DNA from: Streptomyces kanamyceticus
Lineage (GTDB): Bacteria; Actinomycetota; Actinomycetes; Streptomycetales; Streptomycetaceae
Reading direction: 5' to 3'
Assembly (NCBI RefSeq): GCF_008704495.1
Contig: NZ_CP023699.1
Location: forward strand, 6,510,001-6,574,000
Length of the DNA: 64,000 bases
Below are positions 3,934-29,410 of the stretch, one piece after another. A model generated the notes under the pieces. It searched no databases. It was given only the letters and a program-made list of their open reading frames with translations, and was not told the origin of the DNA. The position numbers and the translations under genes were made by a program. The first letter of the stretch is position 1. Each line of letters opens with the position of its first letter.

Positions 3934-4341
3934 TCAGCTGTTGCCCGCGCCGTTGCCCGAGAGGACCGGGATGTTGTCCAGGATGTGCGACAGCGGCTCG
4001 TCGCCCTTGGCCTGGGTGGAGTTCTCGGTGCACTGCTGGTTCTGCGGGGCCGACAGGACCGGGATGTCCTGGACCGCGACCGGCACGACGCCGACGAGCG
4101 AACCGATGTTGGCCTTGGCCGGGAGGCCGATGCAGGGCTTGTTCAGCGAGCCCTGGACCAGGGACATCTGCGGGCTCATGTCGCCGTGGGTGGCGGAGTT
4201 GCCGAAGCTCTGCGTCGCGCCGTTGCCGCTGGACGAGGTGGTGCCCGAGTCGTCACCGATGGCCATGGCCGAGGGCGCGGTGACGGCGGACATACCGGCG
4301 ACGGACGCGGCGAGCGCGGCCGTTGCGAGCAGCTTCTTCAT
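3934..4341 (-). CDS. rodlin (third copy)
   Basis: 135 residues. Rodlins are secreted proteins that, with chaplin fibres, form the rodlet layer on aerial hyphae and spores. The sequence has a signal peptide (MKKLLATAALAASVAGMSAV...AMA) and then the family signatures [47 protein letters not shown] and a SGNGAGNS end, with two conserved cysteines. The start at 4341 is preceded by GAAGGGAACCCC, the same leader as the other rodlins. S. coelicolor has two rodlins next to each other; here a third lies 1.7 kb away beyond an LCP gene. A sigma-BldN-like promoter sits at 4392-4419. Identification is firm; whether this copy is needed is unknown. Confidence 0.95.
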   Translation of the reverse strand: MKKLLATAALAASVAGMSAVTAPSAMAIGDDSGTTSSSGNGATQSFGNSATHGDMSPQMSLVQGSLNKPCIGLPAKANIGSLVGVVPVAVQDIPVLSAPQNQQCTENSTQAKGDEPLSHILDNIPVLSGNGAGNS

Positions 4342-4391: not shown

Positions 4392-4419
4392 TCAACTGAG
4401 TGGCAGCCAGGTAGTTGCG
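4392..4419 (-). promoter_or_regulatory. candidate sigma-BldN-type promoter of third rodlin
   Basis: On the minus strand, CGCAAC (4419-4414), a 16-bp spacer and AGTTGA (4397-4392). My recollection of the sigma-BldN consensus is CGTAAC-N16-CGTTGA, so five of six match in each hexamer. The predicted start point near 4385 gives a 5' leader of about 44 nt. The same hexamers form a CAACT/AGTTG inverted repeat, as in the rdlA-rdlB gap. Confidence 0.5.
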
Positions 4420-4455
4420 GTGAGTAGCCCGTTCAGCCGAGTGCGGTGCTCACCG

Positions 4456-6004: not shown

Positions 6005-6415
6005 TCAGTTGTTGCCCTCGCCGTTGCCGGAGAGGACCGGGATGTCGTCCAGGATGTGCGACAGCGGCTCGTCGCCCTTGGCCTGGGTCGAGTTCTCGGT
6101 GCACTGCTGGTTCTGCGGCGCCGACAGGATCGGGATGTCCTGGACCGCGACCGGCACCACGCCGACCAGGGAGCCCGCGTTCACCTTGGCGGGCAGGCCG
6201 ATGCAGGGCTTGTTGAGCGAGCCCTGGATGAGGGCCATCTGCGGGCTCATGTTGCCGTACGTGGCGGAGTTGCCGAACTCCTGGATGGCGCCGTTGCCGC
6301 TCATCGTGTTGGTGCCGCCGTCGTTGCCGGTGGCGAGCGCCGTGGGGGCCGCAGCGGCCGACATGCCGACGACGGAAGCCGTGACCGCCGCAGCGGCCAT
6401 AACCTTCTTGAGCAC
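6005..6415 (-). CDS. rdlB: rodlin RdlB type (divergent pair, leftward)
   Basis: 136 residues from a GTG at 6415. A longer ATG at 6430 exists, but the preferred start has AAGGGA 6 bp upstream, in the same AAGGGAATCCC leader seen before the other leftward rodlin, and it yields the usual rodlin length. A signal peptide ([17 protein letters not shown]) ends near ALA. Family signatures: [55 protein letters not shown]. The product should be exported and join the rodlet layer. It shares a 238-bp promoter region with rdlA. The letter rdlB follows from position relative to the chaplin at 7373, not from sequence alone. Confidence 0.93.
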
Positions 6416-6455
6416 AGGGATTCCCTTCATGACTGAGCCCCGTCCGCGGAGCACC

Positions 6456-6490
6456 CTGAGCAACTACCCCGGCCGCGATGAGTTGCTCAG
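6456..6490. promoter_or_regulatory. palindromic promoter candidate between rdlB and rdlA
   Basis: Perfect 10-bp inverted repeat CTGAGCAACT (6456-6465) and AGTTGCTCAG (6481-6490). Read rightward it gives AGCAAC-N16-AGTTGC (6459-6486); read leftward it gives the same pair with the same N16 (6487-6460). Each hexamer matches the remembered sigma-BldN consensus at four of six positions. Leftward transcription would leave a leader of about 38 nt before rdlB, rightward about 160 nt before rdlA. It could instead be a dimeric-regulator operator. Confidence 0.45.
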
Positions 6491-6653
6491 ATTCACTCTG
6501 ATGGCCCAAACCCCCGGCGAGGCCCGACTCGGGACCGCGCCGATCGCACGGTTTCGAAAGGCGATCCGATGGAGTGAATGGGCGGAACCAAAAGCCGCAG
6601 GGCGAGTTGGGCAGTCCGCAGTTACCTGTGGTCGGTCCAGAAAAGGAACAGCA

Positions 6654-7067
6654 ATGCACTACAAGAAGGCAATGGCCGCGGCCGCGGTCGCCGTCTCGGT
6701 CGTCGGCATGTCGGCTGCCGCGGCTCCCACCGCGCTCGCCATCGGTGACGACGGCGGCACGACGTCGATGAGCGGCAACGACGCCAAGCAGGAGTTCGGC
6801 AACTCCGTCACCAAGGGCAACATGAGCCCGCAGCTGTCCCTCGTGCAGGGCTCGCTGAACAAGCCCTGTGTCGGCCTCCCGGTCAAGGGCAACGCGGGCG
6901 CCCTGGTCGGCCTGGTGCCGGTCGCGGTCCAGGACATCAACGTCCTCTCCGCGCCGCAGAACCAGCAGTGCACCGAGAACTCCACCCAGGCCAAGGGCGA
7001 CGAGCCGCTGTCGCACATCCTGGACCAGATCCCGGTCCTCTCCGGCAACGGCGAGCACAACAGCTGA
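6654..7067 (+). CDS. rdlA: rodlin RdlA type (divergent pair, rightward)
   Basis: 137 residues from the ATG at 6654, with AAAAGGAACAGCA just upstream. The signal peptide begins [19 protein letters not shown]. It shares the rodlin blocks [47 protein letters not shown] and SGNGEHNS, with two cysteines conserved. It is the copy next to a short chaplin, as rdlA is next to chpD in S. coelicolor. The mid-protein region ([20 protein letters not shown]) is nearly identical among all three local rodlins, so recent gene conversion or duplication is likely. It ends at a very strong terminator. Confidence 0.94.
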
Positions 7068-7137: not shown

Positions 7138-7256
7138 CGTGTCGCGAATTCATGTCGCGCATCACCACGGGACGTGCCGTTGCAACTCCGCCTGTGAGGC
7201 GCCTGCTTGGGTACTGGTCCGCGTTCGAGTGAACTTCCGAAATCTGCCCGTATTCC

Positions 7257-7284
7257 GGTTTCCTCACCCGCGAACGCTCGTTGA
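7257..7284 (+). promoter_or_regulatory. weak sigma-BldN-like promoter candidate of chaplin gene
   Basis: A perfect CGTTGA (7279-7284) with, 16 bp before it, GGTTTC (3 of 6 to CGTAAC). It would give a leader of about 80 nt before the GTG at 7373. Only the -10 half is convincing. Confidence 0.3.
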
Positions 7285-7372: not shown

Positions 7373-7606
7373 GTGAAGCTCAAGAAGAGCGCGACGATCG
7401 TTGCCGGTGTCATCATGGCGCTGAGCATGGGCGCCCCGGCCTTCGCCGACTCCGGCGCCGAGGGTGCGGCCACCGGCTCCCCGGGTGTGCTCTCCGGCAA
7501 CGTCGTCCAGGTGCCGGTCCACGTTCCCGTCAACGTGTGCGGCAACAGCGTCGACGTCATCGCTCTGCTGAACCCGGCGTTCGGCAACACCTGCGCCAAC
7601 GACTGA
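7373..7606 (+). CDS. chpD: short chaplin (ChpD position)
   Basis: 77 residues from a GTG at 7373, preceded by AGAAGGGA 7 bp away; the in-frame GTG at 7349 is less likely because it precedes the Shine-Dalgarno sequence. Chaplins are secreted amyloid-forming surfactants that coat aerial hyphae. The signal peptide ends at APAFA; the mature peptide of about 52 residues is one chaplin domain: SPGVLSGNVVQVPVHVPVNV, then CGNS...LLNPAFGNTC with the two cysteines that form the conserved intramolecular disulfide. There is no sorting signal, so it is of the short type. The symbol rests on position beside rdlA. Confidence 0.93.
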   Translation: MKLKKSATIVAGVIMALSMGAPAFADSGAEGAATGSPGVLSGNVVQVPVHVPVNVCGNSVDVIALLNPAFGNTCAND

Positions 7607-26530: not shown

Positions 26531-26558
26531 CGCACTACTGGCACAGCCGGGTCGTTGA
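26531..26558 (+). promoter_or_regulatory. sigma-BldN-like promoter candidate
   Basis: CGCACT (26531-26536), 16 bp, then a perfect CGTTGA (26553-26558). The -35 half matches only 3 of 6. The implied leader before the ATG at 26607 is about 42 nt. Confidence 0.35.
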
Positions 26559-26606
26559 GTGGGTTACGGATCGTGTGATCGGCACAGCGAAAGGACGAAT
26601 CGAGCA

Positions 26607-27119
26607 ATGAAGAAGTCAACCAGAGGAGCCCTCGCCGTAGCCCTTGCCTGCGCGGCCGCCGCGGGCGCGGGTGCGGGCACGGCGGCCCAGGCGGCGGAAC
26701 AGCCCTCGGTGACCGTCCCGTTGAACGGGCTCGAGTACGCCCTGGACATGGAGGCCCCCGAACTCACGACGGGCGTCCCGGTGCCGCTGCCCGGCGAGGG
26801 CCTCGACGGACCGCGCTACGCACAGGACAGCCTGCTGCCCGAGCGCGCGGTCCCGCGCTTCCCGGTCAGCGGCGTCCTTCCCGACACGCAGCTGTCGGCA
26901 CCGCTCTCGGAGGTGCTGGGCGAGGACACCGTGGAATCCCTCGGCGCCGAGGCCCAGGGGTCGTCCATCGAGGCGGTCACGCCGACGCCCAACCTGGACC
27001 TTCCCTTGACGGCCCCGCAGCCCGATCTGTGGGGCCTGCCCGCGCCGAAGCTGCCCAGCGCGGGACTTGAGGCACCGGAACTGCGCGCGCAGCCCGCGGC
27101 CAACCTCGGGCTCGCCTGA
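26607..27119 (+). CDS. small secreted protein upstream of tyrosinase genes
   Basis: 170 residues; AAAGGA upstream of the ATG at 26607. Signal peptide to about residue 30 (AAAGAGAGTAAQAA). The mature part is acidic and Pro/Leu-rich (TTGVPVPLPGEGLDGP, NLDLPLTAPQPDLWGLPAP, LEAPELRAQP), has no cysteine and no anchor. It is 2 bp from melD1 and thus almost surely in one transcript with the tyrosinase pair. Similar Leu-Pro-rich secreted proteins accompany the chaplins here (23380). Unknown role; an extracellular matrix partner or copper-independent helper is only a guess. Confidence 0.65.
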   Translation: MKKSTRGALAVALACAAAAGAGAGTAAQAAEQPSVTVPLNGLEYALDMEAPELTTGVPVPLPGEGLDGPRYAQDSLLPERAVPRFPVSGVLPDTQLSAPLSEVLGEDTVESLGAEAQGSSIEAVTPTPNLDLPLTAPQPDLWGLPAPKLPSAGLEAPELRAQPAANLGLA

Positions 27120-28890: not shown

Positions 28891-28943
28891 CACGTTCTCC
28901 TTTGACTCGAAAGTGCGGCTGCATAGGTGCAGTCGCACTTCGT

Positions 28944-28972
28944 GTAACGCTGATCGTCATCCCGAGGTCACG
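28944..28972 (-). promoter_or_regulatory. sigma-BldN-like promoter candidate of chpG
   Basis: Minus strand CGTGAC (28972-28967), 17-bp spacer, CGTTAC (28949-28944): five of six and four of six to the remembered consensus. Leader of about 47 nt. Confidence 0.35.
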
Positions 28973-29128: not shown

Positions 29129-29410
29129 GTGACTTCTCCCCGACGACTCATCGCTGCTGTCTCGCTGGCGGCCGGAGCAGCCGCTCTGCTCGCGCCGACA
29201 GCCCACGCCACCGACCGCGCCGACGCGACGGGTGCTCCGTCCGTACTCAGCGCCATCGACAAACTCGGCACCACCGCCATCCCGGAAGAGCACCGGGCCC
29301 AGCTGCCCACCGTGGAGAGCCAGCTGAGCGGCCTCCAGCGGCTGAACGACCTGCACCAGCTCACGGACCTGGTGGCGCCCGTCACCAACGCCGTGCCCGC
29401 TGTTCAGTAA
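29129..29410 (+). CDS. small secreted protein
   Basis: 93 residues from a GTG at 29129, chosen because the signal peptide (TSPRRLIAAVSLAAGAAALLAPTAHA) begins there and a promoter candidate ends at 29074; no strong Shine-Dalgarno is visible. The mature part of about 66 residues is one or two amphipathic helices (VLSAIDKLGTTAIPEEHRAQ, LQRLNDLHQLTDLVAPV) without cysteine. Similar in style to the peptide at 24437. Unknown function; located between chpG and a His-rich peptide gene. Confidence 0.6.
   Translation: MTSPRRLIAAVSLAAGAAALLAPTAHATDRADATGAPSVLSAIDKLGTTAIPEEHRAQLPTVESQLSGLQRLNDLHQLTDLVAPVTNAVPAVQ

Follow-up and report, generated by a model that had tools for sequence, protein, structure and literature searches.

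Two divergently transcribed rodlin genes of Streptomyces kanamyceticus are separated by a region that carries a perfect inverted repeat, which raises the question of whether one symmetric promoter serves both genes or each gene has a promoter of its own. An earlier note on this DNA had favored the former, proposing that a single symmetric element drives rdlA and rdlB at once and that the two rodlins are made in a fixed ratio. We analyzed a stretch of 64,000 nucleotides (the window) from the genome of this species, a single 10.13-Mb contig with three rodlin genes. The features of the locus, in window positions, are as follows.

3934..4341, minus strand: third rodlin gene (NCBIfam NF041022, 226.8 bits)
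4392..4419, minus strand: sigma-BldN-type core of the third rodlin, CGCAAC-N16-AGTTGA, 10/10 match, 50 nt to the ATG
4420..4440, minus strand: upstream element at the third rodlin, possibly degenerate, TCGGCTGAACGGGCTACTCAC, matrix (PWM) score only 1.2
6005..6415, minus strand: leftward rodlin gene, GTG start at 6415 (NCBIfam NF041022, 226.5 bits)
6456..6490, no strand: perfect 10-bp inverted repeat (palindrome) with a 15-nt loop, arms 6456-6465 and 6481-6490
6460..6487, minus strand: sigma-BldN-type core of the leftward rodlin, -35 AGCAAC at 6487-6482, -10 AGTTGC at 6465-6460, 44 nt to the start codon
6493..6508, minus strand: activator-like element upstream of the leftward promoter, TGGGCCATCAGAGTGA, ending 5 nt from the -35, PWM score 17.1
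6562..6577, plus strand: activator-like element upstream of the rightward promoter, CGATCCGATGGAGTGA, PWM score 17.2
6583..6610, plus strand: sigma-BldN-type core of the rightward rodlin, -35 CGGAAC at 6583-6588, -10 AGTTGG at 6605-6610, 43 nt to the ATG
6654..7067, plus strand: rightward rodlin gene, ATG at 6654 (NCBIfam NF041022, 224.1 bits)

The geometry described in the earlier note was borne out: both 10-bp arms were perfect, AGCAAC-N16-AGTTGC was read on both strands (rightward at 6459-6464 and 6481-6486, leftward at 6487-6482 and 6465-6460), and the pair before the third rodlin was exact at 4419-4392. An LCP-family glycopolymer transferase gene (TIGR00350; 4456-5550, minus strand) separates the third rodlin from the rodlin pair, and gaps of 1.5-1.7 kb between rodlins also occur in several relatives.

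Sigma-BldN-type boxes at rodlin genes

Upstream regions of up to 200 nt were scored by the number of matches to the 10 specified bases of CGNAAC-N16/17-NGTTGA, which we take to be the sigma-BldN consensus (box score). A rodlin match was present in 179 of the 246 sampled genomes of the genus, and regions from 80 of the 178 other genomes with such a match gave, with the window included, 217 rodlin genes in 81 loci. In the scan against shuffled controls for which the earlier note had called, a full 10/10 box preceded 104 of the 217 rodlin genes and none of 1,085 control sequences (five dinucleotide shuffles each), in agreement with its expectation. The best score was 9 in 53 genes and 14 shuffles, 8 in 33 genes and 166 shuffles, 7 in 20 genes, and 6 in 7 genes; given these shuffle counts, scores of 9-10 are far beyond chance. 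The palindrome has a score of 8, which by itself is not rare per 200 nt, yet its distance to the gene is as expected and relatives retain it.

A set of 366 rodlin promoters was obtained by adding the best 80 of 512 named loci and removing exact duplicates. Boxes scoring below 7 were excluded from this set and from a set of 205 boxes, and those below 8 from a set of 331. Because the genomes are related and close relatives remain, the 217 and 366 promoters and the 58 divergent pairs described below are not independent. With the search limited to 28-72 nt, the distance from the end of the -10 hexamer to the start codon had a median of 45 nt in the 366 promoters (5-95% range, 38-53 nt), and the cores assigned to genes 6415 and 6654 lie at this canonical distance (44 and 43 nt, respectively). 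A G was also found 8 nt after the -10 hexamer (frequency 0.91), followed mostly by CTCC, and these bases are probably the transcription start and a conserved leader. The predicted leaders are about 37 nt for the leftward rodlin (6415) and about 43 nt for the third rodlin.

In the whole genome, CGNAACN{16,17}NGTTGA had 24 matches versus 8 for the reversed control, and 12 of the 24 had a mechanically called ORF of at least 55 aa with a Shine-Dalgarno-like stretch within 200 nt. Two genes were identified among the 24 matches, namely the third rodlin and a bldM-like gene (203 aa, named from its first residues), which has CGTAAC-N16-CGTTGA 132 nt upstream. Bibb (2000, 2012) is reported to have described sigma-BldN dependence for promoters at rodlin, chaplin, bldM and rsbN genes. 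Targets of sigma-BldN given in the available text of PMC4125116 and PMC4255298 include bldM, chaplins and rodlins. The window is like the known sigma-BldN promoters in its hexamers, the 16/17-nt spacer and the target genes, and the same genome also has the bldM-like gene with its box. From the enrichment at rodlins, the distance, the bldM-like gene's box and the known targets taken together, the rodlin motif is almost surely a sigma-BldN promoter, and the resemblance of the hexamers to the sigma-BldN consensus, which the earlier note had pointed out, is supported both at the rodlins and at the bldM-like gene.

Conserved element upstream of the -35 hexamer

When the 366 rodlin promoters were aligned on the -35 hexamer, a conserved block appeared at -17 to -5, CC[AG][TA][TC]CG[GA]GTGAA. 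The element is 13-16 bp long and reads about CCRWYCGRGTGAA. Its information content was 1.06 bits per position, compared with 1.56 in the hexamers, 0.13 in the 4 nt adjoining the -35 and 0.04 in the region from -60 to -22. A matrix made from one half of the loci scored above 5 in 173 of 180 promoters of the held-out half versus 3 of 1,800 shuffled upstream sequences, the two halves sharing related species; the best register was at -17 in 171 of these 180 promoters. The element was directional: among the 331 promoters with boxes of at least 8, on which the matrix used here was also trained, it was found forward in 313 and reverse in none.

At the palindrome, the element was present on the leftward side (+17.1) and absent on the rightward side (-16.3), and it was found again at the rightward rodlin's box at 6583 (+17.2). 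The combined pattern GTGA-N6-GNAAC-N16/17-NGTTG had four matches in the 10.13 Mb, two of which are the rodlin pair analyzed here, and the reversed control had one. RGTGA was missing at the exact place in 119 of the 366 rodlin promoters, the third rodlin of this genome included, and inspection of the bldM promoter by eye revealed no such upstream element. Since the bldM promoter and most chaplin families lack the element beside their assigned boxes, it is not part of sigma-BldN recognition, and its presence is shown for a part of the regulon. The available text of PMC4125116, PMC4255298, PMC12096830, PMC5650626, PMC5069765, PMC3293853, PMC6428758 and PMC11005364 contained no description of this upstream element, and we regard it provisionally as novel.

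Promoter assignment in the divergent pair

The rightward rodlin (6654) has a box of its own at 6583-6610, which matched the consensus at 9 of 10 bases versus 8 of 10 for the palindrome. With the core matrix alone, the palindrome scored 21.3, equally in both directions by symmetry, versus 20.6 for 6583-6610. When the core and the upstream element were scored together, the values were 38.4 for the palindrome leftward, 37.8 for 6583-6610 and 5.0 for the palindrome rightward, and these totals decide for 6583-6610 over the palindrome as the rightward promoter. As the rightward promoter, the palindrome would give a leader of about 160 nt versus box-to-start distances of 38-53 nt at rodlins, and the element score on that side is -16.3. 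The proposal of one element for rdlA and rdlB thus survived in its leftward half, with the palindrome as the predicted promoter of the leftward rodlin, and was not supported in its rightward half, where the gene has its own box and element. A single bidirectional promoter implies that neither gene has another one, and here a box with an element occupies 6562-6610. Divergent promoters with a shared symmetric core are likewise placed between divergent genes, as in the window, but the window differs in that each gene has its own promoter at the canonical distance.

Divergent rodlin pairs of other genomes were arranged similarly. From 72 pairs, 58 distinct ones were retained and the others dropped as duplicates. 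A box of at least 8/10 was found within 28-72 nt of both genes in 44 of the 58 pairs, of one gene in 12 and of neither in 2. With no distance limit and the core matrix only, 108 of the 116 best cores still lay at 28-72 nt. Under these conditions, overlap between the two genes' best cores was seen in 3 of the 58 pairs, the window among them because the rightward palindrome (21.3) edges out 6583-6610 (20.6). Under the 28-72 nt limit no overlap occurred in the 58 pairs, a result that is largely built in by the limit and carries little weight. Own boxes in 44 of 58 pairs and 108 of 116 cores at 28-72 nt suggested that two back-to-back promoters are the normal architecture; against this reading stand the 14 pairs in which one or both genes are without a box reaching 8/10.

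The symmetry itself was also analyzed. Inverted repeats at the 205 rodlin boxes scoring at least 7 were 3-7 bp long, and the palindrome was the sole 10-bp case. The mean reverse-strand match was 6.55 at real boxes (n = 331) versus 4.89 in shuffled contexts, which indicated that the sigma-BldN core is intrinsically near-symmetric. The bidirectional look of the palindrome can be explained by this near-symmetry of CGnAAC...nGTTGA (CAAC...GTTG) together with lineage-specific flanking bases that complete the dyad; AGCAAC and AGTTGC of the leftward rodlin depart from the consensus at two positions, those on which the symmetry of the core depends. Selection for symmetry at divergent loci was rejected, as the reverse-strand match was the same at divergent (6.61, n = 67) and non-divergent boxes (6.55, n = 138).

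The palindrome was then compared with the six nearest relatives (S. atriruber, S. lasiicapitis, S. flavofungini, S. alboflavus, S. silaceus and one more). CTGAGCAACT, on the -10 side of the leftward core, was retained in five of these genomes, S. atriruber having one base inserted there, and the outer CAG of the right arm was retained in none. The rightward rodlin's box at 6583-6610 could be aligned in all six. The dyad is therefore not conserved as such, its right flank varying in this alignment. At the palindrome position, a rightward score of 8/10 persists in four of the six relatives, and weak rightward initiation there is conceivable for this reason.

Among the alternatives, we give a small but real chance to a mixed case, in which the palindrome acts mainly leftward and also supports a weak secondary rightward start, yielding a long-leader 6654 transcript that runs through the main promoter of that gene. 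The reverse core of 8/10 in five of seven aligned genomes, the window included, and a rightward core that scores no lower than the box of gene 6654 itself are consistent with it; the rightward side, however, has no activator element. That a single palindromic sigma-BldN promoter fires both ways and fixes the rodlin ratio is very improbable. Its core scores equally in both directions and is the best rightward core when distance is ignored, and four of the six relatives keep the reverse match, but gene 6654 carries a box and an element of its own, a leader of about 160 nt would result, the flank of the dyad varies among relatives, the reverse direction lacks the element, and symmetry is no greater at divergent boxes than elsewhere. 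The fixed ratio also sits badly with RT-PCR in S. coelicolor, in which, according to the available text of PMC5650626, rdlA rose 414-fold and rdlB 147-fold over their own 36-h values, figures that are not between-gene ratios. One bidirectional promoter is thus not supported as the main reading, and weak rightward firing is what may be left of it. Least probable of all is that the dyad overlaps the leftward promoter as the operator of a dimeric regulator. Two perfect 10-bp arms set 25 bp apart could conceivably accommodate a dimer, but the six relatives conserve the promoter part and not the outer CAG of the right arm, and a 10-bp dyad is unique among the 205 boxes.

Spacing of the element in rodlins and chaplins

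The gap between RGTGAN and the -35 hexamer in the 366 rodlin promoters was 4 nt in 247, 5 nt in 2 and 14 nt in 6 (one of these beside a weak 7/10 box), and gaps of 6-13 nt did not occur. Beyond 14 nt, a further 31 occurrences of RGTGA were spread over gaps of 20-52 nt. In S. atriruber (locus L137, 806-1082), the gap of the leftward promoter is 10 bp longer than at 6456-6508 of the window, with both element and core preserved. An activator that contacts RNA polymerase would need such shifts to come in steps of one helical turn.

Chaplin promoters were compared in the same manner, although the rodlin matrix is unreliable on them because their boxes differ (CGTRRC...CGTTRN) and automatic starts are often wrong. 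One round of start calling covered 39 loci, 6 of them without a start, and another gave at least 280 candidate starts, some inside genes. In a family that is presumably chpH-like, judged by the signal peptide, RGTGA was located at 14 nt in 14 of 14 promoters, and the rodlin element matrix exceeded 5 in 10 of 14 versus 9 of 140 shuffled sequences. The matrix exceeded this value in 1 of 10 SR..K and 1 of 53 K.KK chaplins. RGTGA was found within 32 nt of the chosen box in 3 of 10 SR..K, 17 of 53 K.KK (mostly 23 or 26 nt away), 0 of 16 N[ST]AKK, 1 of 46 K[YF].K and 3 of 74 R-type chaplins. In the chpD-like family, 23 or 26 nt separated it from the selected hexamer, the choice of which is uncertain. 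The genome pattern with a 14-nt gap had two matches, one at a chpH-like chaplin, and its reversed control had one.

In the available text of PMC5069765, chpH is counted as early and the rodlins as late, so the presence of the element alone cannot encode timing. We speculate that its position may do so.

Candidate regulators of the element

Candidate consensuses were scored on the column frequencies of the element and compared with 2,000 permutations of their own letters. The available text of PMC4125116 gives the BldM Group I site as TCACcCgnncGgGTGA and the BldM-WhiI Group II site as TGnnCCGnnCGGGTGA. Each of the two outscored all 2,000 permutations, at offset -21. The best Group II match fell at one register in 315 of the 366 promoters, with a median of 9 of 12 bases per promoter, and 222 of the 366 had at least 9 versus about 20 expected from shuffles. 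The right half of the BldM site, CGGGTGA, is found at a fixed register in the rodlin element consensus as CGRGTGA, and the inner CC is likewise shared. The element differs from the BldM sites in its weak left half and in position -10, which is G or A. The left half TCAC of the Group I palindrome was not found, as columns -21 to -18 favor T/C, G/A, G/C and G/C, and the TG columns of the Group II left half were partly matched (T 0.42, G 0.35). The main text available from PMC4125116 and the other papers named above made no mention of rodlins as direct BldM targets. BldM or BldM-WhiI is our best guess for the activator on the strength of these matches, a candidate that falls just short of an even bet and is not established.

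We rate at even odds that the element is real and is bound by PhoP, MtrA or an undescribed regulator instead, an alternative that concerns the BldM step only. The reverse complement of the element fits a PHO direct-repeat unit, with 6 of 2,000 permutations as good. On the other hand, a single unit is conserved, whereas two tandem PHO units failed (725 of 2,000 permutations as good), and the BldM consensus fits better across 16 positions. MtrA activates the rdl genes, and "loosely conserved" sites lie upstream of them, according to the available text of PMC5650626.

Other candidates were rejected since many permutations fitted equally: OsdR (1,960 of 2,000), WhiA (840), the two-unit PHO box (725), AdpA (201) and a lone AGTGA BldD half-site (117).

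Proposed model of the rodlin intergenic region

Here, we propose that the intergenic region consists of two separate back-to-back sigma-BldN promoters, each with a directional element, and that the leftward promoter has the palindrome as its core; from the DNA sequence, we consider this reading likely. The two promoters, one per rodlin, would lie 95 bp apart, and RNA polymerase with sigma-BldN would use their boxes, with leftward transcripts starting near 6452 and rightward ones near 6618. Each would carry a 13-16 bp directional element, usually 4 nt and sometimes 14 nt, or one helical turn more, upstream of the -35 hexamer, and an activator bound there on one helix face would select the direction. 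If this activator is BldM or BldM-WhiI, a feed-forward loop would result, because sigma-BldN itself switches on bldM.

A bolder proposal, which we hold with low confidence, is that the near-symmetric core barely gives direction and that an asymmetric BldM-type operator, kept on a single helix face 4 or 14 bp from the -35, sets direction and perhaps timing. If so, the coat genes would be controlled by a feed-forward loop from sigma-BldN through BldM, the position of the operator could separate early from late coat genes, and the window would be an extreme case with a perfectly symmetric core and an operator on one side only. In the available text of PMC5069765, sigma-BldN controls all chaplins and rodlins, which leaves unexplained why some chaplins are early and others, with the rodlins, late. 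A second conserved site, strictly spaced by helical turns and similar to the target of a regulator that sigma-BldN induces, would offer concrete bases for this timing question. The locus also advises caution, in that symmetric sigma-BldN boxes between divergent genes are not automatically bidirectional promoters. The paired directional activator-like element of each rodlin promoter is a more interesting object than the palindrome.

Weaker pairs before other genes of the window

The earlier note had also listed weaker hexamer pairs before further genes of the window, at which the following features were found.

7221..7233, plus strand: element-like GCGTTCGAGTGAA upstream of the chaplin at 7373, PWM score 18.2
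26531..26558, plus strand: CGCACT-N16-CGTTGA upstream of the gene at 26607, by eye
28944..28972, minus strand: chaplin-type box CGTGAC-N17-CGTTAC upstream of the chaplin starting at 28891, by eye

By eye, the pairs at 28944-28972 and before the gene at 26607 could be recognized, and that before the peptide at 29129 was not convincing as a hexamer pair. At the chaplin at 7373, CGTTGA (7279-7284) is clean, but the hexamer 16 nt upstream of it is GGTTTC. This promoter region (7221-7284) combines a strong RGTGAA element and the unusual core GGTTTC-N16-CGTTGA with a 23-nt gap, and element gaps of 23 or 26 nt recur in several relatives. At the gene at 26607, CGGGCGAA precedes CGCACT-N16-CGTTGA (window 26531-26609) in a near-rodlin arrangement, and this gene is possibly a further member of the coat regulon.
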